This document shows, piece by piece, positions 34,893 through 52,150 of a stretch of DNA of 64,000 nucleotides. The DNA lies in assembly GCA_018883245.1 (NCBI GenBank), contig VEQL01000002.1, positions 92,960 to 156,959 on the forward strand, written 5' to 3'. The stretch is from Chthoniobacterales bacterium. GTDB lineage: Bacteria > Verrucomicrobiota > Verrucomicrobiia > Chthoniobacterales > JACTMZ01. A program made the position numbers and the translations under genes. Every line of letters starts with the position of its first letter. Position 1 is the stretch's first letter. Below the pieces are notes generated by a model. That model had not been told where the DNA came from. It worked only from the letters and a program-made list of their open reading frames with translations, and did not search any database.

Positions 34893-35299
34893 AGCACTGG
34901 CTCGTCAAGCAGGAGCCGGACTCCTACCCGTGGGAGCAGTTTGTCCGCGACGGACAGACGGCGTGGACCGGCGTGAGGAATTTTCAGGCCCGCAACAATT
35001 TGCGCAGCATGCGAAAAGGGGACGAAGTGTTCTATTACCACAGTGTGACCGGTAAGTGCGTGATGGGGACGGCCCGCGTGGCGCGCGAGGCTTACCCCGA
35101 CCCGACGGCCAAGGATGGCGATTGGTCGTGTGTCGACCTCGAGCAGGCCAAGGCATTCGGCACACCCGTTACCCTGGCGCAGATCAAGTGCGAGCCCGGT
35201 CTGCGGGACATCGGTCTGGTGCGGCAATCGCGACTCAGTGTTGTCCCGCTCACGTCATCAGAGGCTGCTCTTTTGCGCCGGTTGGGAGGCGTTTCGTGA
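34889..35299 (+). CDS. EVE domain protein
   Basis: A 136-residue protein starting at a GTG inside a GTGA overlap with the dehydrogenase. EVE/PUA-like fold hallmarks are HWLVKQEPDSYPWEQF at the start, WTGVRNFQARNNLR, and KGDEVFYYHSVTGKCVMG. EVE domains belong to the PUA superfamily and recognise modified bases in DNA or RNA. Biological substrates in free-standing bacterial EVE proteins are uncertain. The stop overlaps the GTG of the amylase gene, so it is cotranslated on both sides. Confidence 0.9.
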   Translation: MKHWLVKQEPDSYPWEQFVRDGQTAWTGVRNFQARNNLRSMRKGDEVFYYHSVTGKCVMGTARVAREAYPDPTAKDGDWSCVDLEQAKAFGTPVTLAQIKCEPGLRDIGLVRQSRLSVVPLTSSEAALLRRLGGVS

Positions 35300-37146
35300 G
35301 ATTCCTCGCGTTCCCTTGCGCCGTCCTGCTTGCCGCTGCGCCGGCAGGCCGTGCATTCGCGCCCAAGCCCGACCCGAAGGCATGGCAGGCCGAGGCGGTC
35401 TGGTATCAGATTTTTCCCGAGCGCTTTCGCAATGGTGATCCCGACAATGATCCCGTGCGCGACAGCCTTGGCGGCAAAGAATGGCTGCCGTCGTCCTGGC
35501 AGACGAGGGCATGGACCTCCGATTGGTATGCGCGCGACGCGTGGGAGCAGGCTCGCGGGGAGGATTTTTACTGGACGGTCGGCGAGCGCCGCTACGGGGG
35601 TGACATCCAGGGAATCATCGACAAGCTGGATTACCTGCGCGACCTCGGCATCAACGCGATTTATCTCAACCCCGTTTTCTGGTCGGGTTCGCACCACAAA
35701 TACGACACGTGGAGCTATCACCACGTCGATCCATGGTTCGGTCCCGACCCCGAGGGCGACGTGAAGTTGATCGAAAAGGAGACCGAAGACCCCGCGACAT
35801 GGCAGTGGACCGCGGCGGACAAACTCTTCCTCGAAATGGTGCGGCAAGCGCACGACCGCGGGATGCGGGTGGTCATCGACGGAGTGTTCAACCACTCGGG
35901 CGCCGGTTTTTTCGCCTTCCGCGACCTGCGAGAAAATCAGCAGGCCTCGCGATTCAAAGAATGGTTCATCATCGAAACATGGGATGATCCGGGAACGCCG
36001 CAGAACGAATTCCGCTGGCACGGTTGGCACGGCATCACCGAGATGCCGGAGTTCGCCGAGGCATGGAGCGGAGACCGTGGCGACCTTGTTCCCGGGGTGA
36101 AAAGCTACATCATGGCCGTCACCCGACGCTGGATGCAGCCGGATGGCGACGTCTCGCGGGGGGTGGATGGTTGGCGCCTCGATGTCGCTTGGATGGTGCC
36201 GCCGGCCTTCTGGCGGGATTGGAACGCCTTGGTGCACGAAATCAATCCTTCGGCCGTCACTATAACGGAGGTTTGGAAAGATGCGCACAAGACCACGAAG
36301 GAAGGGGATTTCGATGCAACGATGAATTACGAGGGATTTGCCATGCCGGTGAAGGGGTGGCTGTTCGACCATGCGCTCAAGCCTTCGGCCTTCGCCGCGT
36401 GGCTGGATCGCACGCGTGCTTTCTGGCCGTCAGCCACGGCGCTGCGTTTGCAGAACCTGCTCGATTCGCATGACACACCGCGCGCGGGATCGGCGGCCTT
36501 CGACGGACGCCCCGGAAAAAAATACATCAACCCCGACGAATTCGACTTGGCGGTGGGCGGAATCGTCTCGCCGAAAAACAACCGCGATTACCTCTGGCAG
36601 AAGCCCGACGATCGCGCGTGGAAATTGGTGCGTATGGCCGTGACCCTTCAGATGGCCTACGTGGGGACGCCTTTCATCTACTACGGTGGCGAAGCGGGGA
36701 TGTGGGGCGCGAACGACCCCGACTGCCGGAAGCCGATGGTGTGGGACGATCTGGTCTACGACGACGAGTTCACGGCCCCGGATGGACGGCGCGTTGCGCG
36801 AAATCAGGTCAAATTCGATCGCAGCCTGCACGCGTTTTTCAAAGCGGCCATCGCGCTCCGTCGCAACACGCCGGTCCTGAATGCCGGAGAATTTCGCTGG
36901 CTGCTTGCCGATGATGCGGCCAGCACGCTGGCATTCGAGCGCACCGGAGGGCCGGCGCGTGCTCTCGTCATTTTCAACCGCGGCGAAACCGGGCAAACCG
37001 TGCGGCTCGAGGCGCCTCCCGGATGGCCGGACGGCCCGGTGCATGCGTGCTTTGTTTCCGACGGCGGATCGGCCACCGTTCGAAAAGCCGATGGTTCGCT
37101 GTTTGCCGAGATGGCGCCACTGACCGCCGCGGTTTTCCTGCCATGA
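35296..37146 (+). CDS. Secreted GH13 alpha-amylase-family glycosidase
   Basis: A 616-residue protein from the GTG at 35296, overlapping the EVE stop. A signal peptide (FLAFPCAVLLAAAPAG) is followed by the GH13 barrel. Catalytic regions are complete: DGVFNHSG, GWRLDVAW with nucleophile Asp296, ITEVWK with acid/base Glu325, and DSHDTPR with Asp393. The opening VWYQIFPERFRNGDP resembles cyclomaltodextrinases and neopullulanases. It is predicted to hydrolyse alpha-1,4 glucans or cyclodextrins in the periplasm or outside. A short C-terminal beta domain ends the protein. Confidence 0.92.
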   Translation: MRFLAFPCAVLLAAAPAGRAFAPKPDPKAWQAEAVWYQIFPERFRNGDPDNDPVRDSLGGKEWLPSSWQTRAWTSDWYARDAWEQARGEDFYWTVGERRYGGDIQGIIDKLDYLRDLGINAIYLNPVFWSGSHHKYDTWSYHHVDPWFGPDPEGDVKLIEKETEDPATWQWTAADKLFLEMVRQAHDRGMRVVIDGVFNHSGAGFFAFRDLRENQQASRFKEWFIIETWDDPGTPQNEFRWHGWHGITEMPEFAEAWSGDRGDLVPGVKSYIMAVTRRWMQPDGDVSRGVDGWRLDVAWMVPPAFWRDWNALVHEINPSAVTITEVWKDAHKTTKEGDFDATMNYEGFAMPVKGWLFDHALKPSAFAAWLDRTRAFWPSATALRLQNLLDSHDTPRAGSAAFDGRPGKKYINPDEFDLAVGGIVSPKNNRDYLWQKPDDRAWKLVRMAVTLQMAYVGTPFIYYGGEAGMWGANDPDCRKPMVWDDLVYDDEFTAPDGRRVARNQVKFDRSLHAFFKAAIALRRNTPVLNAGEFRWLLADDAASTLAFERTGGPARALVIFNRGETGQTVRLEAPPGWPDGPVHACFVSDGGSATVRKADGSLFAEMAPLTAAVFLP

Positions 37147-43110: not shown

Positions 43111-43494
43111 CTACCCAGACCGCTCCTTGCCCCGCTCGAGGTGCAGGCGGTGAAGGACGCGGTGCACAATGGGCGAAGCGAGGATGCCGACGCTGGACAC
43201 CACGACCAATGTGCCGAAGAGCGCGTAGAGCGAAGAGAACATCTTCAACGCGTTGCTCGATTCGCGCTCGGTATAGAGCGGGCCGGCCCCGCTTAGCAGC
43301 ATGCTTGCCTCGAGAAAAGAATCCACAAAGTCGAGTCTCTCAGCCTCGGTGTCTTTCGAGATGATCATGTAGCCAGCGATGCCGCCGGCCAGCGTCACGC
43401 CGACAACGCAGACCACCAAAAGCATCTGGCGGGCCATGCGTCCGACAAAAACGCGCCCCGGCGCCAAGGGTTCTGAGTGATGTTCCCAAGCCAT
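43111..43494 (-). CDS. Two-helix membrane protein resembling a K+-channel pore module
   Basis: About 127 residues if started at the ATG at 43494; an in-frame ATG at 43560 would add 22. Helix 1 (about residues 22-41) is followed by a re-entrant-like segment FLEASMLLSGAGPLYT and helix 2 (FSSLYALFGTLVVVSSVGIL, about 79-98), then a basic, His-rich tail. The order TM-pore loop-TM and the SLYALFG signature recall two-TM potassium channels. The TVGYG filter is replaced by SGAGP, so channel function is unproven. No Shine-Dalgarno sequence is obvious. An operator-like palindrome overlaps the preferred start. Confidence 0.55.
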   Translation of the reverse strand: MAWEHHSEPLAPGRVFVGRMARQMLLVVCVVGVTLAGGIAGYMIISKDTEAERLDFVDSFLEASMLLSGAGPLYTERESSNALKMFSSLYALFGTLVVVSSVGILASPIVHRVLHRLHLERGKERSG

Positions 43495-43508
43495 GCAAAC
43501 GTTTGCAT
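43493..43508. promoter_or_regulatory. Perfect 16-bp palindrome, LacI/CcpA-type operator candidate
   Basis: ATGCAAACGTTTGCAT is its own reverse complement, with a central CG as in LacI/GalR-family operators and the cre consensus. It overlaps the proposed start codon of the minus-strand 2TM gene and lies 216 bp upstream of the giant amylase ATG. Sugar-responsive control of the amylase is an attractive inference. No other exact copy was noticed in the window. Confidence 0.5.
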
Positions 43509-43647
43509 ACAGCAAGCTATCCGGCGATCCAAGCGCTCTCGGGTGCGCGACTGCCGCCATATGAGTAAACAAAAAGTCACAGCTCCGACTTTTTTCTGTT
43601 TTCTTCCTGAACGGGGTTCTCAAACGAGTGTCTAAATTAACAGAGAA

Positions 43648-43723: not shown

Positions 43724-46700
43724 ATGACATATCCCCAGATGATTGCCCCGCGCGCTCATTGGCGGCGTCTGGTCGCCCTTGTTGCCGGTTGCCTCCTGTT
43801 GACAGGGGGTCAACCGCCGTCCGCCCGTGCCGAGGCGATGCTGCAACTGTTCAATGTTTCATGGGCCGAGGTCACAAAAAAAATGCCCGAACTGGCCGAG
43901 GCGGGCTACGGTTCGCTTTGGCTGCCGCCACCGACCAAGGGGTCGGGTGGTCTTTCTGTCGGTTACGACATGTGGGATCCGTTCGACCTTGGCTCCAAAA
44001 ACCAGCGCGACACCGTGCGCACGCGTTACGGCACGGAGGCTGAATTGCTCGAACTGGTCGAGACCGCTCACCGTTTTGGGATTCGCATTTATTTCGACAA
44101 CATCATGAACCACCGGGCTTTCGACGTGCCCGGCTACAACGAAAACACGGCGATCGACGTTTATCCGGGGATGGTGCCGGAGGATTTTCATTTGCGCAAA
44201 ACCGAGGACGGTTTTTACCGAAAGTGGGATAACACGCGTGATTGGGGCAGCGCTTGGCAGGTGCAGAATCTCGGTCTCGCCGACCTAATAGACATTGCTC
44301 ACGAGACGCCAAACGCCAATTTCGGCACGAGCGAGGGTTCGACGCATCCGAAGTATTCGTTCATCCGCGATCTCGAGCGCCCTGCGCAATACGACAAAGA
44401 CAAAGACGGCAATCAAGCCTACTTTGGCGTGCTGATCGATCAGGCGCGAGCGGAGCTCGGATTAAGCGCAAGCAACGAAGATGTTCGTCTCAAAGCGCGC
44501 AGCTACATTTTGGCGAACACAAACAACGCGTTCGTGGAAGATGTAGGCGCATACCTTATCCGCGCTGTCCGTTGGAAAATGGACCGCACCAAGGCCGACG
44601 GCCTGCGCCTGGACGCCGTGAAGCACGTGCCGGATTATTTCTTCGGCCAGCAAACGGGTGCGGACAAAGACTCGAGCGACGCCGGCTACCTGGGCGGCGT
44701 GCAATGGCAGTTCAACCGCACACGCGGTTTCAGCGATGCCAACCATCGCGATTCGGTGTTCGACGAGAAACGAATCCGCGACGATGCGATGGTCTTCGGT
44801 GAGCACCTCGGGCAACCGCCCGGGTATGGAGGTTATTGGGATGCCGGCATGCGTCTGGTCGACAATGATCTTCGCAGCAAGCTCAACGGTGTTCTGGGCA
44901 ACATGTGGTCTGGATTGCAAGGACTCGACGCCCCCGGCGCGGGCGGTTTTGCCGCCAGCCTCGGTGTGACCCATGCCAATAGCCACGACAGCGATTACGC
45001 CGCGCAGAAAGAATGGCAACATGCGTTCTACATGACCCGTGAGGGCATGGGGCTGATTTATTCCGACGGCTACAACAAGGCCGAGACCCTCGGGGAATCA
45101 GGCGGCGCTTTCCCGCGCCACGCCAACACCGCCTATCTCGGCCAGTTCGGCGATCCGCGCATCCCGAATATCCTGAAGCTGCACAACGATTTCGCCCGCG
45201 GTCTGCAGCAGGGACGCTGGGCGGATGGCGACTACCTCGCCTTCGAGCGCCGCGACAACCGCAACCCGGATGGCTCGGTGCGCAGTGCCAACGCGGCCGA
45301 GGAAATTACCATGGTGATGATGATGAACGATAACACTGCGCAGGGTCAGGCGCGTGGCATCAGCACCAGTTTCCCCGGCAGCGCATTGCTTTATCAATAC
45401 GCCGAGGGCCCCAGCGGTTCGAGCATGACGGGTTTTTACAAGTTCGCGGGCGAACTGGGTTCCGTCACCGTCCCACCCGGTGGTTATTTCCTTTTCAGCT
45501 ACCGCACGCCCGAATTGTCCACGCTGTGGCCGGATGCCGCGATCACGCTTTACCAGGCCAATGCATCGACAGGCCAACTCCAGGAGGTTCCACGGATAAC
45601 GGTGACGCGCAAAGATGGACGCGACGGCGACAAGAGTTTCAATCCTTACGGTCTTGCCAATCGCGGTTATCCGACCAATGCCACGCCGGTTGATTACACC
45701 TATCAGACGAGCGTGCCCGTGGTGAAAGGCAACACGCCGCTCACCATCCTCGCGCGCGCCGACGGATCGGCGGAGAACATCCTGATCAAACTCGACGGTG
45801 GCGTGGATCTCAATGGCACCGGTCTCGGCACCGATCCGGCCCAACGCGACAATCCTCCCGGACTCCGCACTGATGTCTACCTCGGCTATGAGCAACCGAC
45901 CTTCATCGACCGGCAGCACCCGGAAAAATTCGCGGCCGAGGATACCAAACGCAGTCGCATAGGTTCGCCGGGCGCTGAAACCTACGTTAGATTTCCGGAC
46001 GGAAGTTACAGTGTGAACCTAGGCCCGACAAATGGTGCCTTCACAAACAATTTCTCCTCCGAAAACGGAAACGTCGTTTCTTGGATTTATCACAGTCCGA
46101 CCAACATTGTGGGTGGCCCGGCTGGAACTAACGGAGTTGGAAGCCCCCAGTTTGGTTCGATTGTCGGCACGAATATGGTGCTGTGGGCCAAAACGCCGAC
46201 GAACATCGGAAGTGGCTACAAAATGTTCGTCTATTACACGACGGGAGGGGCGTCTTACCCCGAGGGAGCGGGCGGCATTGGTCGCGGAGAGACAAGGGTT
46301 GCCGAGTTCGATTTCAGGCACGACGAAACGGGAAACGATCCGGGAAGTTGGTGGAGCGCCACAAACCTGCCTAGCAGCCTCCTTTCGTCTGAGGTCCGCT
46401 ACAAGATCGGCGTTTATCGGACGGAAAAAGCGACCAACCGGGAGACGCCATCTTGGTGGCCGGGCAGTTTGGACTCCGTGACCTATAAAAAGAAGATGCT
46501 GACCACTTTCCGGGTCGCTGAGTTCGACCCCGCCAATGTGCAGCACTTCCCCCACAACGATTACGCTCGCGCGCCCACCTTGGGAGAGCCTTATGAGAAG
46601 TGGCCCTGGGCCATGAGGACCGGTCTTGCGGAGGGCTTCCACGTCATGCGCGCCCGCGCGTTTCTGCCGACAGGCAAAGGCGGGCGCTCCTTGGATGCTG

Positions 46701-49700
46701 CCCCCCTTTACCAGACCTTCGTCCAAACGTTTTACTACGACGCGCTGCCGCCGCAGGGCACGGTTGCCTGGCCCGCAAACAACGGCGACACGGTCGGCGG
46801 GTCAAGCTACGAACTGGTGATCCGCACGGACTCCACGGTGGAAGAGGTCTGGTATCACATCGACGACTCCGATGCGCGGAACAACGACAGCGCGACAAAA
46901 CAGTTGAACGGCAACGGCGCGGGATTCGAACCGTTCGACGATGCCAACCAGAACGGCCTCCGTGATGCCGCGGAGGATTTCACCGACGTCAATGGTAACG
47001 GCATCTACGACATATCCTTGTCCGACAGTTGGGCCAAGGCGACCGAGGTGACTGCGCCCGAGGGTGTGACGCAAAAGGAATGGCGATTCCGCTACAACAA
47101 CATTCCGGCGAGCGGCGAGGGCACGATCAAGATCCGTCTCCTCGAAGCCTCCTCCTCGCGCGATCTCACGCTGTCACCCGGGTCCGCCAACGTGACTGAG
47201 CTGACCCGCAGCGTGCAAACGCGCGGGCCTGACGAGCGTGTCATGATCGCCTGGCCCCAAAGCGATGGCAACCGGGTCGATGACAACTACACGATGAAAG
47301 TCTACTTCACGAAGGAACTGGCCAACGGCATCAGCGAGCAGCAGCTCAAGGACCGCTTCACCTTCACCATCGCGAGCCGTTCGTCGGGCAGTTCCGAGGG
47401 GGCCGTTGCGCAGAGCCGGTCCGATTTCATCATCAGCTACGACGTCAACGACCAGTTCCACGAGTTGGCCGTCCCGCTGCCCAACATGTATAACGGCATC
47501 GCCGACTTCCTCCACACGCTCAAAGTTGTCTATGCTTTTCCCGACGATCATCCGGACACGGCAAAACGCGGCCTGAAGCTCGAAGCAGTCCGGCTCGCCA
47601 CCGCCAATCCGAGCACCAAACCCTTCATCCGCATCATCCGTCCGACGGAGGTCGGCTCCGATGGCAAACCGACCGAAATCATACTGCGCGATGTTCCCGG
47701 TCCGGACTCCCTTGATTATGAGGTTTGGGTCGAGACAAGCACGAATGTGGTGACTGCTCCAACGCTCAACGGCATTGCCACCAACAACGCTCTTCCCGTG
47801 GTGCCGGGGGCCACCGCCAACACGTGGAAATACAATTGGAGCATCACGGCTCCGGGGACTTATCCCATTACGGCAACGACCGTATTGAATGGACAGACTA
47901 ACAGCACCTCGCGCAATGCCCGAGTCATCCTGCGCCAAGTGGTCGATGCCGACGGGACAACCGATAATGACGACGACAACGACGGTCTGATCGATATCGA
48001 CGAGACAAACCAAAAACCTCTGCCCCCCGAAAAAATTGCGGAGAATTACAACAACGGTGACGTGCATCTCTACTACGCCACCGGTCGCAGTTTGCCGACG
48101 AGTCCGGATAGTGACGGCGACGGCCTGCCGGATGGCTTGGAGGTCGGTTGGCGGGGTGCCATCAGTCCTCCGACCGACACGAGTATCGATACAAACGGCG
48201 ACGGCGTGCCTAACTTCCGCGGGGATCTCGATCCGCCGCTCTATGCTGTGGTTGAAAACGCTGCAGCAGTTCCAGGCGTCGGCGACCGGAGTCAGGGTGA
48301 CCTCCGCACCCGCCAAGCTGCGGGAACCGTCACCGATCCAACCAACGCGGACACGGATGGTGACGGCATCCTTGACGGCATCGAAGATGCCAACATCAAC
48401 GGGTGGACAGATGGCGACGGCAAAGCGCTCCCTCTCGCCGCCGCGATCTCGCAATACACGGTTGAGCGGCCGAATCCAGGCGACTGGCCGAATAACATCA
48501 TCGATTTCTTCGAAACCTGGGCCGAAACCAGTCCGTCCAAGGCAGACTCCGATGACGACGGTTTAAAGGACGGCTACGGCGAAGACAAAAACTGCAACGG
48601 TTTGATCGAAGGTGATACCAATACGAATCGCCGTTATGACGCCGGCGAGGCGTGGACTGAAACGGATCCGCTCAACGAAGACACCGATGCCGACGGTTTG
48701 CCGGATGGTTGGGAGGATCAGTTCGGTCTTGATCTGCTCGACAACGGCACCGACAGCTACCGGACGGCCGCGCTGAATGACGGCAATGCAAACAGCGGCG
48801 CGGATGGTGATCCGGACGGCGATAGAGTGAAAAATATCGACGAATTGGCCGCCGGCACCAACCCGAATCAGCCGAACAACCCGGGTGGCGGGGGTGTCGG
48901 TGAAGGCGCCATCCGCATCGGCCAATTCACGGATTGGACGCACACGGATCTCCTCGCCCTTGATGAATACAACGAGGGTGGAAGCCAGGGGGCGGATGTC
49001 TACCGCTCTTGGAACAACACTGATAATTCGCGCGACATCGTAGCCTTTTCTTTCCGCGACGGAGGTGAGGCAGACGGCCGGGTTTATTTCCGCATCGATT
49101 TCCTCGATCTGGCGGCCTACGCCGAGCAGGGCGAGGTCGACGCCTACATCGTGATCGACACGGGCAACCCTGCGGCGGGCGAACGCGCTCTACCCAACGG
49201 TGTGGACATCGCCACCGAGATGGGTTGGGAGGCTGTGGTTGCAGTCTATGCCACCGATTTCGGAACGGTGTTCACGGACAGCCAAAGAACCAACAACACC
49301 CAGGACAAATACCAAGATCCCGGGGCGGCCTTCGGTGTGCAGACCCGCCCGTTCGGCGCACCCGGACTCAATCGTGCGGCTTGGTCCAGCGTTTACGACG
49401 CCCTCGAAATCTCCATCGACCGGCAGAGCTTGATCGATGCCGGGTGGCTGGGCGACCCGAACACGCTGAATTTCCAGGTGTTCACGACCAAGCCCAACAC
49501 CCAGGCCGGCGGCACCGGTGATATCGCCGGCCGCAATGATATCCGCGATACCGTCTCGGACGACTGGATCACTTCGGACTACTGGAAGGATCAGGATAAC
49601 ATCCAACTCAACGAGAAGCTCAGCTACTACTTCGGCCGCGATCTGTCGCAGGGCAACATCAACAACCGTAAATTCAACGACCGCAACAAGTCGGCCAAGG

Positions 49701-52150
49701 TCATGCTCGTGGCTCACGGCAACCAGACGATCCAACCGGCCAGTGTCACGCAGGCGCTGATCCGCAGCGGAACGCCTCCGGTTGGCTACTCGCGGTTGCT
49801 GCAGACGCACGAGGCCTACAACGCACCGCTCACGCTGCACATTACGCCGACCCTCGCTTCCGCGCTACAGTGGGCGGTCAATCCGAGTGCGGGCGCATGG
49901 CCGAACAATGATGGGCCTTCATTCAACGCGAAGCTTCGCGACCTGATCGCGACGGGGCGTGTTTCGTTGCTCGGGTCCAGCTTCTCCGACCACATTCCGA
50001 AATATTTCCTGCAGGAATTCAACAACTCCAACAAGGAACTGGCTGAGCAGTTCCTTGATGCCATCTACGGAAATGGCAACGCTGTCGCATCGCGCTCCAT
50101 ATTCTGGGCGCCGGAACGTGTTCTCGACAGTGTGTCGCTCGAGACGATCTACAGCATGGGCTATCGCTATGTGTTTGCCGACCAGATGAAGCACTTCGTC
50201 AAATGGTTTGGCCGGACTCCCGCGCTAGGCACCGACGGTTATTGCATCAACGAAGTCAACGGGATGAAAATCTTCCCGATTCACGATGTGACTTCCGCTT
50301 ACCTCGAGCAGACGTTGGACTACGGATCGAGTCTCCCGGTGCGTCAGCTTCTCTCCCGCCGATCGCGCAGTAATGTTCAGGATCAGGTCGTGGTGATGTG
50401 GAAGGATCTGGGTGACTTTTCCACCGATGCCAAGGCGACGAGCTATGATAGCAACGTTCGCTGGCTCTCCAGTCGTCCGTGGGTCCGCGTGGTCACCGCG
50501 CAGCAGATTGCAGAACAAGAGATCAGCTATCCGGGCCGAACCCCAGAGACATCAGGAAATACATACACCCAGTGGAGCACCGTCTTCCGAGGCACCGGTC
50601 AGATCTTGCCACAGACCTCCAAGGACTGGATCGATCACGCCACCCAGGGGAGCTACGACAACTGGTATCACGGGTCGTCGAGCGAGGAAGGTTTGAAGAA
50701 CAGGACATTCGGTGCGACGGAGGCGTTCGGTCAAGTTGGTGTGAGCGGTCATGCCAACCAAGCGTGGCTTGCGGCGAACAGTGCCTACCGATCCAACCTC
50801 CGCCAAGTCGCCGCAGCTGTGATCCACGGTTCAATGTTCCAGACGGCCTTCCACAATACCACGAATAACAACCTCTCGAAGTTCAGCTCGGGCGATTATA
50901 TTTATCCCGACACCGACACGGGACAGAAGTTGGCAGACTTTGTCCGCAACACCCAAGCGCAGGCCCGATTCGCCAACATTTACGGGCGCGTCCAGATTTG
51001 GGCGGCCAACGCGACCCCAACAAGCCTCGGCGCATCGTCCGAGGATGTGGATCTGGACGGAGCGAGTGAATACTTGCTCTACAACAGCCGGGTGTTTGCC
51101 GTCTTTGAGAAGAAAGGCGGACGCATGACGGCAGCATGGCTGCGGGATGGCGCCACGGGCAATGTCTGGCAGGTGGCCGGAAATTTTGCCTCTTACAGCA
51201 ATGCGGACACCGAGGATGAAGGCGAGAGCAACTTCGTCACAGGGACCACCACCATAAATGCCTATCGCACTAGCGGGTTCAAAGACTGGTGGGTCGTCAC
51301 GGGCACCGCTGGCAGCAGCACTGCGGTTAATACGGAATACACGGTGACCCCGACAGCGAGCGCCGCTGGTTGGATGTTCTCGCAGGGCGGAATTAGCAAG
51401 ACGATCACCTTGGCCGATGCCACGACGGGCAACCTTACGGCCGCCTATAGTCTGAGTGGACCGAACAAGCTTTATGTCCGCTTCGGCCTTGCACCGGACC
51501 TGCTCGACTTGATGCTGAACGGACAGGCTAACCTTGAGACTTCGACTGTAGGTAGCAGTCGCCTCAACCTGCTCAACAACGCCGCTGACGGCCCCGTCCG
51601 TGCGTTTGTCGAAACGTCAGCCGGCAGCTCGATCAACAGTGCCGCGACCGACAAAGATGATTCCGGTTTCACCACCGTCAACCTGCGCAACCAGGCGCAG
51701 ACGCAGCAGGTCGAAGTCGAAATCACCGGCAATACTGTCATTACCCTCGGTTTCGATCAGGGGGTGTCCACCGACGCTGACAACGACGGACTGGCGGACC
51801 AATGGGAAAGCGACAATTTCGGCGATCTAATCCGTGATGGGACCGGCGACTATGACAATGACGGACTGACCGACAAACAGGAATATGTGCTTGGCTCGGA
51901 TCCGAAAGACGCGGGCAGCGGCAAGCCTGTGATGGTCAGGGATGCAAACGGCTTCCATGTGACATTCCCGACGAAGGCTGGCCGCACCTACACGGTCAAA
52001 TACCGCGACAGTCTGATCTCCGGGGATTGGACGGGTATTGTCGGCAATCCTGTCGCCGGCGATGGCATCAGCAAGACTGTGACCGACACAGATGCCGGAA
52101 GTGTCAAAAGCCGATTCTACCGCGTTGAGGCGAGCATCACATCGCAATAG
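43724..52150 (+). CDS. Giant secreted GH13 plus GH57-like glycan-degrading protein with TSP3 repeats
   Basis: About 2808 residues from the ATG at 43724, which has GGGAG 5 nt upstream; a GTG at 43628 would add 32. A signal peptide (RRLVALVAGCLLL) is followed by a GH13 domain with complete catalytic sites: IYFDNIMNH, GLRLDAVKH (Asp297), FGEHL (Glu360) and NSHDSD (Asp422). Beta-rich modules follow to about 1400. Calcium-binding thrombospondin type 3 repeats (DSDGDGLPDG type) occupy about 1406-1719, then a DOMON/glucodextranase-C-like domain (1728-1963). A GH57-like region runs about 1990-2260: VAHGNQT, then WAPERV with Glu2131, then KDLGDF with Asp2228. A beta domain with DLDGASEYLL resembles GH57 C-terminal modules. 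The end carries a second TSP3 segment and a verrucomicrobial-type C-terminal domain. Confidence 0.88.
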   Translation: MTYPQMIAPRAHWRRLVALVAGCLLLTGGQPPSARAEAMLQLFNVSWAEVTKKMPELAEAGYGSLWLPPPTKGSGGLSVGYDMWDPFDLGSKNQRDTVRTRYGTEAELLELVETAHRFGIRIYFDNIMNHRAFDVPGYNENTAIDVYPGMVPEDFHLRKTEDGFYRKWDNTRDWGSAWQVQNLGLADLIDIAHETPNANFGTSEGSTHPKYSFIRDLERPAQYDKDKDGNQAYFGVLIDQARAELGLSASNEDVRLKARSYILANTNNAFVEDVGAYLIRAVRWKMDRTKADGLRLDAVKHVPDYFFGQQTGADKDSSDAGYLGGVQWQFNRTRGFSDANHRDSVFDEKRIRDDAMVFGEHLGQPPGYGGYWDAGMRLVDNDLRSKLNGVLGNMWSGLQGLDAPGAGGFAASLGVTHANSHDSDYAAQKEWQHAFYMTREGMGLIYSDGYNKAETLGESGGAFPRHANTAYLGQFGDPRIPNILKLHNDFARGLQQGRWADGDYLAFERRDNRNPDGSVRSANAAEEITMVMMMNDNTAQGQARGISTSFPGSALLYQYAEGPSGSSMTGFYKFAGELGSVTVPPGGYFLFSYRTPELSTLWPDAAITLYQANASTGQLQEVPRITVTRKDGRDGDKSFNPYGLANRGYPTNATPVDYTYQTSVPVVKGNTPLTILARADGSAENILIKLDGGVDLNGTGLGTDPAQRDNPPGLRTDVYLGYEQPTFIDRQHPEKFAAEDTKRSRIGSPGAETYVRFPDGSYSVNLGPTNGAFTNNFSSENGNVVSWIYHSPTNIVGGPAGTNGVGSPQFGSIVGTNMVLWAKTPTNIGSGYKMFVYYTTGGASYPEGAGGIGRGETRVAEFDFRHDETGNDPGSWWSATNLPSSLLSSEVRYKIGVYRTEKATNRETPSWWPGSLDSVTYKKKMLTTFRVAEFDPANVQHFPHNDYARAPTLGEPYEKWPWAMRTGLAEGFHVMRARAFLPTGKGGRSLDAAPLYQTFVQTFYYDALPPQGTVAWPANNGDTVGGSSYELVIRTDSTVEEVWYHIDDSDARNNDSATKQLNGNGAGFEPFDDANQNGLRDAAEDFTDVNGNGIYDISLSDSWAKATEVTAPEGVTQKEWRFRYNNIPASGEGTIKIRLLEASSSRDLTLSPGSANVTELTRSVQTRGPDERVMIAWPQSDGNRVDDNYTMKVYFTKELANGISEQQLKDRFTFTIASRSSGSSEGAVAQSRSDFIISYDVNDQFHELAVPLPNMYNGIADFLHTLKVVYAFPDDHPDTAKRGLKLEAVRLATANPSTKPFIRIIRPTEVGSDGKPTEIILRDVPGPDSLDYEVWVETSTNVVTAPTLNGIATNNALPVVPGATANTWKYNWSITAPGTYPITATTVLNGQTNSTSRNARVILRQVVDADGTTDNDDDNDGLIDIDETNQKPLPPEKIAENYNNGDVHLYYATGRSLPTSPDSDGDGLPDGLEVGWRGAISPPTDTSIDTNGDGVPNFRGDLDPPLYAVVENAAAVPGVGDRSQGDLRTRQAAGTVTDPTNADTDGDGILDGIEDANINGWTDGDGKALPLAAAISQYTVERPNPGDWPNNIIDFFETWAETSPSKADSDDDGLKDGYGEDKNCNGLIEGDTNTNRRYDAGEAWTETDPLNEDTDADGLPDGWEDQFGLDLLDNGTDSYRTAALNDGNANSGADGDPDGDRVKNIDELAAGTNPNQPNNPGGGGVGEGAIRIGQFTDWTHTDLLALDEYNEGGSQGADVYRSWNNTDNSRDIVAFSFRDGGEADGRVYFRIDFLDLAAYAEQGEVDAYIVIDTGNPAAGERALPNGVDIATEMGWEAVVAVYATDFGTVFTDSQRTNNTQDKYQDPGAAFGVQTRPFGAPGLNRAAWSSVYDALEISIDRQSLIDAGWLGDPNTLNFQVFTTKPNTQAGGTGDIAGRNDIRDTVSDDWITSDYWKDQDNIQLNEKLSYYFGRDLSQGNINNRKFNDRNKSAKVMLVAHGNQTIQPASVTQALIRSGTPPVGYSRLLQTHEAYNAPLTLHITPTLASALQWAVNPSAGAWPNNDGPSFNAKLRDLIATGRVSLLGSSFSDHIPKYFLQEFNNSNKELAEQFLDAIYGNGNAVASRSIFWAPERVLDSVSLETIYSMGYRYVFADQMKHFVKWFGRTPALGTDGYCINEVNGMKIFPIHDVTSAYLEQTLDYGSSLPVRQLLSRRSRSNVQDQVVVMWKDLGDFSTDAKATSYDSNVRWLSSRPWVRVVTAQQIAEQEISYPGRTPETSGNTYTQWSTVFRGTGQILPQTSKDWIDHATQGSYDNWYHGSSSEEGLKNRTFGATEAFGQVGVSGHANQAWLAANSAYRSNLRQVAAAVIHGSMFQTAFHNTTNNNLSKFSSGDYIYPDTDTGQKLADFVRNTQAQARFANIYGRVQIWAANATPTSLGASSEDVDLDGASEYLLYNSRVFAVFEKKGGRMTAAWLRDGATGNVWQVAGNFASYSNADTEDEGESNFVTGTTTINAYRTSGFKDWWVVTGTAGSSTAVNTEYTVTPTASAAGWMFSQGGISKTITLADATTGNLTAAYSLSGPNKLYVRFGLAPDLLDLMLNGQANLETSTVGSSRLNLLNNAADGPVRAFVETSAGSSINSAATDKDDSGFTTVNLRNQAQTQQVEVEITGNTVITLGFDQGVSTDADNDGLADQWESDNFGDLIRDGTGDYDNDGLTDKQEYVLGSDPKDAGSGKPVMVRDANGFHVTFPTKAGRTYTVKYRDSLISGDWTGIVGNPVAGDGISKTVTDTDAGSVKSRFYRVEASITSQ
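47941..48880 (+). repeat. Thrombospondin type 3 calcium-binding repeat block (in protein)
   Basis: Within the giant ORF about seven degenerate Asp/Gly/Asn repeats occur, such as DNDDDNDGLID, DSDGDGLPDG, DTDGDGILDG, DSDDDGLKDG and DTDADGLPDG. They encode calcium-binding loops that act as rigid spacers between the GH13 and GH57-like halves. The block is recognised at the protein level; DNA copies are diverged, so recent tandem duplication is not apparent. Confidence 0.85.

Follow-up and report, generated by a model that had tools for sequence, protein, structure and literature searches.

GH13 and GH57 catalytic regions in one predicted secreted protein of a Chthoniobacterales bacterium

Whether catalytic regions of two unrelated alpha-amylase families, glycoside hydrolase families 13 and 57 (GH13 and GH57), can be joined in a single polypeptide is the question raised by a gene at 43724..52150 ((+) strand) of a 64,000-nucleotide stretch of the genome of a Chthoniobacterales bacterium (assembly GCA_018883245.1, contig VEQL01000002.1, positions 92,960 to 156,959 of the forward strand), referred to below as the window. 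Enzymes of either family are familiar by themselves, and multidomain carbohydrate enzymes are common. The original prediction, made from the sequence of the window, placed both regions on one chain; this observation is confirmed, and the interpretation attached to it is largely supported, with one correction, concerning the second acid of the GH57 region. With a probability of about two in three, the protein is a two-enzyme alpha-glucan degrader on one chain, with predicted secretion and possible retention at the cell surface via its C-terminal module.

Two catalytic regions in one reading frame

The gene starts with ATG at 43724, its stop codon ends at 52150, and the frame is open throughout for 2,808 amino acids (aa), as had been predicted; use of an alternative GTG start at 43628 would give a product of 2,840 aa. 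All parts of the protein described below are encoded on the same (+) strand. In the Pfam analysis, the families Alpha-amylase and Glyco_hydro_57 were both found above cut-off in this single protein, and the five residues proposed as catalytic, namely, D297, E360, D422, E2131 and D2228, all occupy their predicted positions. The N-terminus (residues 1–36, 43724..43831) resembles a signal peptide ending in ARA-EA, and the protein is predicted to be exported.

The GH13 catalytic region, recognized by Pfam, alignments and a sequence match in the Protein Data Bank (PDB), comprises residues 38–620 (43835..45583). PF00128 (Alpha-amylase) matched with 38 bits at a cut-off of 22. The Asp/Glu/Asp triad of the family is represented by D297, E360 and D422, and in an 80-row alignment these residues were found in every row with a letter at the position (63/63, 65/65 and 66/66, respectively). 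NCBIfam models for PRK09441-type alpha-amylases matched below cut-off, the best with 120.6 bits versus 516.

The GH57 part, a barrel with a helical region, comprises residues 1986–2430 (49679..51013) and contains E2131, D2228 and D2231; its assignment is based on Pfam, alignment and the predicted fold. PF03065 (Glyco_hydro_57) matched residues 2032–2233 with 24.6 bits at a cut-off of 21.2, and with 29.7 bits in the genome-wide search. The structure predicted for this region (pLDDT, the model confidence score, 94) contains a seven-stranded barrel, and the closest solved structures are those of GH57; an earlier prediction from 9 sequences reached a pLDDT of 42.8 and was not used. E2131 corresponds to model residue 152, beyond the fourth barrel strand (143–148; strands counted by hand), and D2228 to model residue 249, at the end of strand beta7 (244–249), while D2231 lies three residues further. 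In PMC6037648, GH57 is defined by a nucleophile Glu on strand beta4; the proton donor of the family is an Asp on strand beta7. Three of the five conserved sequence regions of GH57 (1, 3 and 4) were matched by eye in the fusion protein. The barrel is followed by a predicted beta-sandwich of mutarotase-like fold (residues 2434–2680, 51023..51763). The predicted model of the GH57 part is nearest in fold to amylopullulanase and 4-alpha-glucanotransferase.

The second acid of the GH57 region

Asp2228 had been proposed as the second acid of the GH57 site. It is present at beta7 of the fusion protein, but in the wide 80-row alignment it was found in just 51 rows, being replaced in the other 29 by N (12), H (4), W (3), S (3) and other residues. 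Position 2231 is D or E in 78 rows, including all 29 of those lacking D2228. A quick tree of 81 rows, inferred with the motif columns excluded, shows at least nine changes of state at 2228. In the four free-standing GH57 relatives, the motif reads FDDWEAF, which places D at 2228 and A at 2231. Where D2228 is lacking, the acid may have shifted to 2231 or the GH57 part may be degenerate. Since 2228 is not D in 29 of the 80 rows, parts of the family may have an altered GH57 catalysis or none, which weighs against a reading with two working enzymes.

The strongest alternative, although an unlikely one, is that GH13 works alone, the GH57 region having degenerated catalytically into a part that binds glucan or acts as a scaffold. 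The repeated replacement of D2228 would fit this, as would the greater variability of the GH57 half, the mean p-distance of which is 0.522, compared with 0.358 for the slower-changing GH13 half. However, E2131 is kept in 79 of the 80 rows, an acid at 2231 in 78, and each of H2157, W2247 and W2253 in all 80; D2228 itself is invariant in the clade of the fusion protein (19 rows, support 100) and in all 137 proteins with a letter at this position in a further comparison. A different identity of the C-terminal region, as a NodB-type deacetylase or a GH38/GH119-like enzyme instead of GH57, is far less probable; NodB deacetylase and GH38 were considered and set aside.

Distribution of the architecture and origin of the fusion

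Two homologue searches scored 389 and 803 proteins at E ≤0.001, of which the best 120 of each were listed. In the search with the GH57 half, 110 of the best 120 listed matches were 2,700–3,000 aa long, lengths set partly by the method, because the searches admit only 0.55–1.75 times the query length. In an alignment of 141 rows, consisting of the fusion protein and 140 returned homologues, D297, E360, D422, E2131 and D2228 were all kept in 128 rows; of the remaining 13, 12 are without letters in either the GH13 or the GH57 region, and the last carries G at 2131 and is gapped at 2228. The protein P0126, without a GH57 match in Pfam, resembles the family as far as about residue 2,017 and diverges thereafter; its record was regarded as broken or chimeric.

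Because these 141 rows had been chosen by similarity, a wider set was drawn by scanning genome contigs with peptide patterns of the GH57 half, which yielded 79 loci. L076, too short, was left out of the resulting alignment (A2), and L098 was listed but excluded from subsequent input. By hand count, 76 of the 79 titles belong to Verrucomicrobiota in the wide sense, including Kiritimatiellae and Pontiellaceae; of the other three, two are titled ‘bacterium’ and ‘uncultured bacterium’, and the third bears a Paceibacterota name. In 62 loci, one frame contains the complete GH13 triad together with a letter at 2131. The 17 exceptions comprise 12 frames open at the 5' end, one open at both ends (L088) and four broken frames (L036, L072, L084 and L090), in which the earlier parts of the family protein lie in an adjoining frame.

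In a phylum sample of 383 genomes, the own genome included, the GH57 profile matched 44 genomes, belonging to 29 of 192 genera. In 41 of the 44 (hand count, the own genome among them), the match lies in a frame of 2,400 aa or more, and for each of these 41 the query with the GH13 half matched the same contig and frame length. The GH13–GH57 layout is thus widely distributed in Verrucomicrobiota. Of 57 genomes of close relatives, 13 matched; the distribution is patchy, since matches were found in 9 of 11 genomes of the own genus (itself included) and in 4 of 46 in the rest of the order. An assembly or frame artefact can be practically dismissed, although the genome is a draft of 84 contigs, as similar-length frames occur in the named strains Cerasicoccus arenae (L046), Brevifollis gellanilyticus (L079) and Haloferula rosea (L091) as well as in the 41 genomes counted above.

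Variants of other lengths were also observed. Several genomes (e.g., G101, G270 and G387) contain frames of about 2,200–2,330 aa with a GH13 N-terminus, 32–37% identical, for which no GH57 match was listed in the profile search of the phylum sample. Longer versions of the fusion are represented by L130 (3,275 aa), part of the extra length of which lies around fusion-protein residue 800, and by other frames of 3,009–3,383 aa. Relatives of the fusion gene are also present in P0023, P0157 and L033, labelled as cyanobacteria or Paceibacterota; these are likely mis-binned verrucomicrobial contigs.

Each half was also found alone. Free-standing GH57 frames of 1,140–1,235 aa (L125–L128) align to residues 1729–2805 with 24.5–28% identity. 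Free-standing GH13 proteins of 1,191–1,196 aa (P0236, P0238, P0249, P0250 and P0258) align to residues 5–1173 with 38–40% identity, after which four of the five match the C-terminal module of the fusion protein; their tails also weakly match the end of its internal TSP3 stretch (1645–1714). Open frames of about 1,370–1,450 aa with the GH13 part occur in a dozen genomes, and six of these contain the fusion as well. Free GH13 and GH57 genes were not found as neighbours: no relative of the fusion GH13 was seen in the stretches around four free GH57 genes, one of these stretches being just 6 kb long. Because each half still occurs by itself, with a C-terminal module of a similar kind, the fusion probably arose by end-to-end joining; on the simplest reading of these sequences, two secreted enzymes, each with a tail, would have been joined, the first tail being left as an internal spacer. 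The distances of the two halves correlate (r 0.67, reached by none of 2,000 permutations; 62 of the 80 rows, those with both halves), and the halves appear to have travelled together since the joining.

Accessory regions, gene neighbourhood and proposed function

Between the catalytic regions lie three further parts. For the middle region (residues 621–1400, 45584..47923), no consistent family was found with Pfam; the profile of a stretch at about residues 800–910 matches residues 19–116, in the N-terminal part, of the alpha-amylase 8jnx_A (E 0.0014), and this stretch may be a glucan-binding module. Acidic TSP3-like repeats, revealed by motif search and alignment, occupy residues 1410–1715 (47951..48868). 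The predicted TSP3 repeats are borne out by a regular expression, which found 15 such motifs, nine of them within residues 1416–1694, but not by Pfam, the sole TSP3 match of which, best at 2709–2730, remained below cut-off (19 bits versus 25). The module preceding GH57 (residues 1716–1975, 48869..49648) was recognized by its conservation. Its description as DOMON-like was not confirmed: Pfam gave nothing for the own stretch and no stable family in members, in which Laminin_G_3 was matched in 9 of 21 and PF09985 in just one of 21 (E 0.039).

The C-terminal module (residues 2684–2808, 51773..52147) combines TSP3-like and FYRV parts and is common to three other open reading frames of the genome, located on contigs 66, 50 and 40; a sorting or anchoring role is possible. 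The frame on contig 66 (L122:653–4093, (+) strand) encodes a GH13-like protein of 1,147 aa with a Pfam match just below cut-off. On contig 50 (L123:1217–5362, (−) strand), a secreted-looking frame of 1,382 aa contains a further GH57 match (37 bits) and a CBM53 match just below cut-off, while the frame on contig 40 contains passenger-associated repeats.

In the window, a GH13 gene resembling those of cyclomaltodextrinase and maltodextrin glucosidase (35056..37146, (+) strand; best NCBIfam models below cut-off) lies about 6.5 kb upstream of the fusion. Besides the window, a BLAST cluster of 600-aa cyclomaltodextrinase-like GH13 proteins is represented near the fusion in 15 of the 79 loci. A GH13-like gene of about 800–1,410 aa was found within 700 bp downstream of the fusion in 31 of 62 loci, the count covering loci with at least 1.2 kb downstream and taking the longest plus-strand frame as the fusion, with a few truncated loci misjudged. 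In Cerasicoccus (L046), a divergent gene for a LacI-type regulator is followed by the fusion gene, a GH13-like gene (Pfam match just below cut-off), a cyclomaltodextrinase-like GH13 gene and, on the opposite strand, a GH31 gene. The BLAST cluster of the LacI-type gene is present in 14 of the 79 loci (the Pfam scan covered the L046 member alone). In the own genome these genes are dispersed, and the counterpart of the GH13-like partner is the frame on contig 66, which is 42.8% identical to the Cerasicoccus partner.

A perfect 16-bp palindrome with a AAACGTTT core, which we take to be LacI-type operator-like, was found about 215 bp before the start codon (43493..43508). The AAACGTTT motif occurs 7 times in 61 upstream regions, versus a mean of 0.575 in 200 shuffles (maximum 3), ranks first among 64 palindromes of the same composition and is enriched upstream of more distant relatives. 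No second exact match of the 16-bp palindrome was found in the own genome. With up to two mismatches, the palindrome, tried as a regulon marker, gave two genome matches, and it marks no regulon, since the reversed control pattern also gave two.

According to the preferred reading, a two-enzyme alpha-glucan degrader, the GH13 region would cleave extracellular starch or glycogen internally, and the GH57 region would debranch the fragments or transfer and rearrange them alongside GH13. The TSP3-like stretches could bind calcium and hold the parts apart, while the C-terminal module would keep the protein at the cell surface. Further GH13 and GH31 enzymes, the genes of which lie near the fusion in relatives, would complete degradation under the control of a LacI-type repressor.

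Besides the loss of D2228 in parts of the family, several points weigh against this reading. The signal peptide was recognized by eye; surface anchoring is a guess that draws on the recurrence of the C-terminal module; and neither the middle region nor the module before GH57 is assigned to a family by Pfam. The adjacent GH13-like partner is absent from 31 of the 62 scored loci, and the fusion gene of the window is not flanked by the companion genes, its neighbours being fmt upstream and, on the opposite strand, a polysaccharide deacetylase gene downstream. As for regulation, AAACGTTT was found in none of the 13 tested loci of the fusion gene's own clade, and no site of this type was found at the tested loci with a 350-aa LacI-type neighbour. 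A broader scheme, in which a phylum-wide single-chain alpha-glucan machine arose from two joined secreted enzymes and its second acid moved repeatedly from 2228 to 2231, is tentative and rather doubtful.

Annotation with a single label would overlook half of the fusion enzyme. The repeated change of the second acid beside a constantly acidic neighbour offers a natural test of an acid-catalyst shift in glycosidases. Moreover, the origin of the fusion and the gain from joining are directly testable, because the layout is conserved in many families and both free-standing halves persist.

A literature search, with subscription journals mostly outside its reach, found no description of one chain joining GH13 and GH57; the GH13–GH57 fusion is a new, widely conserved architecture built from known enzyme families. 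Among solved alpha-amylases, the best PDB sequence match to the GH13 region is 1mwo (E 2.7e-25 over 89 residues), most of the approximately 580-residue region being without sequence alignment to these enzymes. The GH57 amylopullulanase of Aquifex aeolicus (9ii1 and related entries; 13% identity) is a chain of 476 residues, whereas in the fusion protein GH57 shares a chain of 2,808 residues with GH13; the 4-alpha-glucanotransferase of Thermococcus litoralis (1k1x; 14% identity, root-mean-square deviation 9.4 Å over a long alignment) has 636 residues. The free-standing GH13 or GH57 relatives have one catalytic region each, in contrast to the two of the fusion, and the GH57 of Sandaracinus is described in PMC5010890 as a single-domain protein. 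In freshwater Verrucomicrobia genomes of one lake, GH13 and GH57 are overrepresented, according to PMC5615132. Polysaccharide utilization loci for alpha-glucans, as presented in PMC10877868 and PMC11206854, encode GH13, GH57 and GH77 as separate enzymes, with GH13 and GH57 side by side (the type III loci of PMC10877868 are reported in Gammaproteobacteria), whereas in the fusion protein GH13 and GH57 are parts of one chain.
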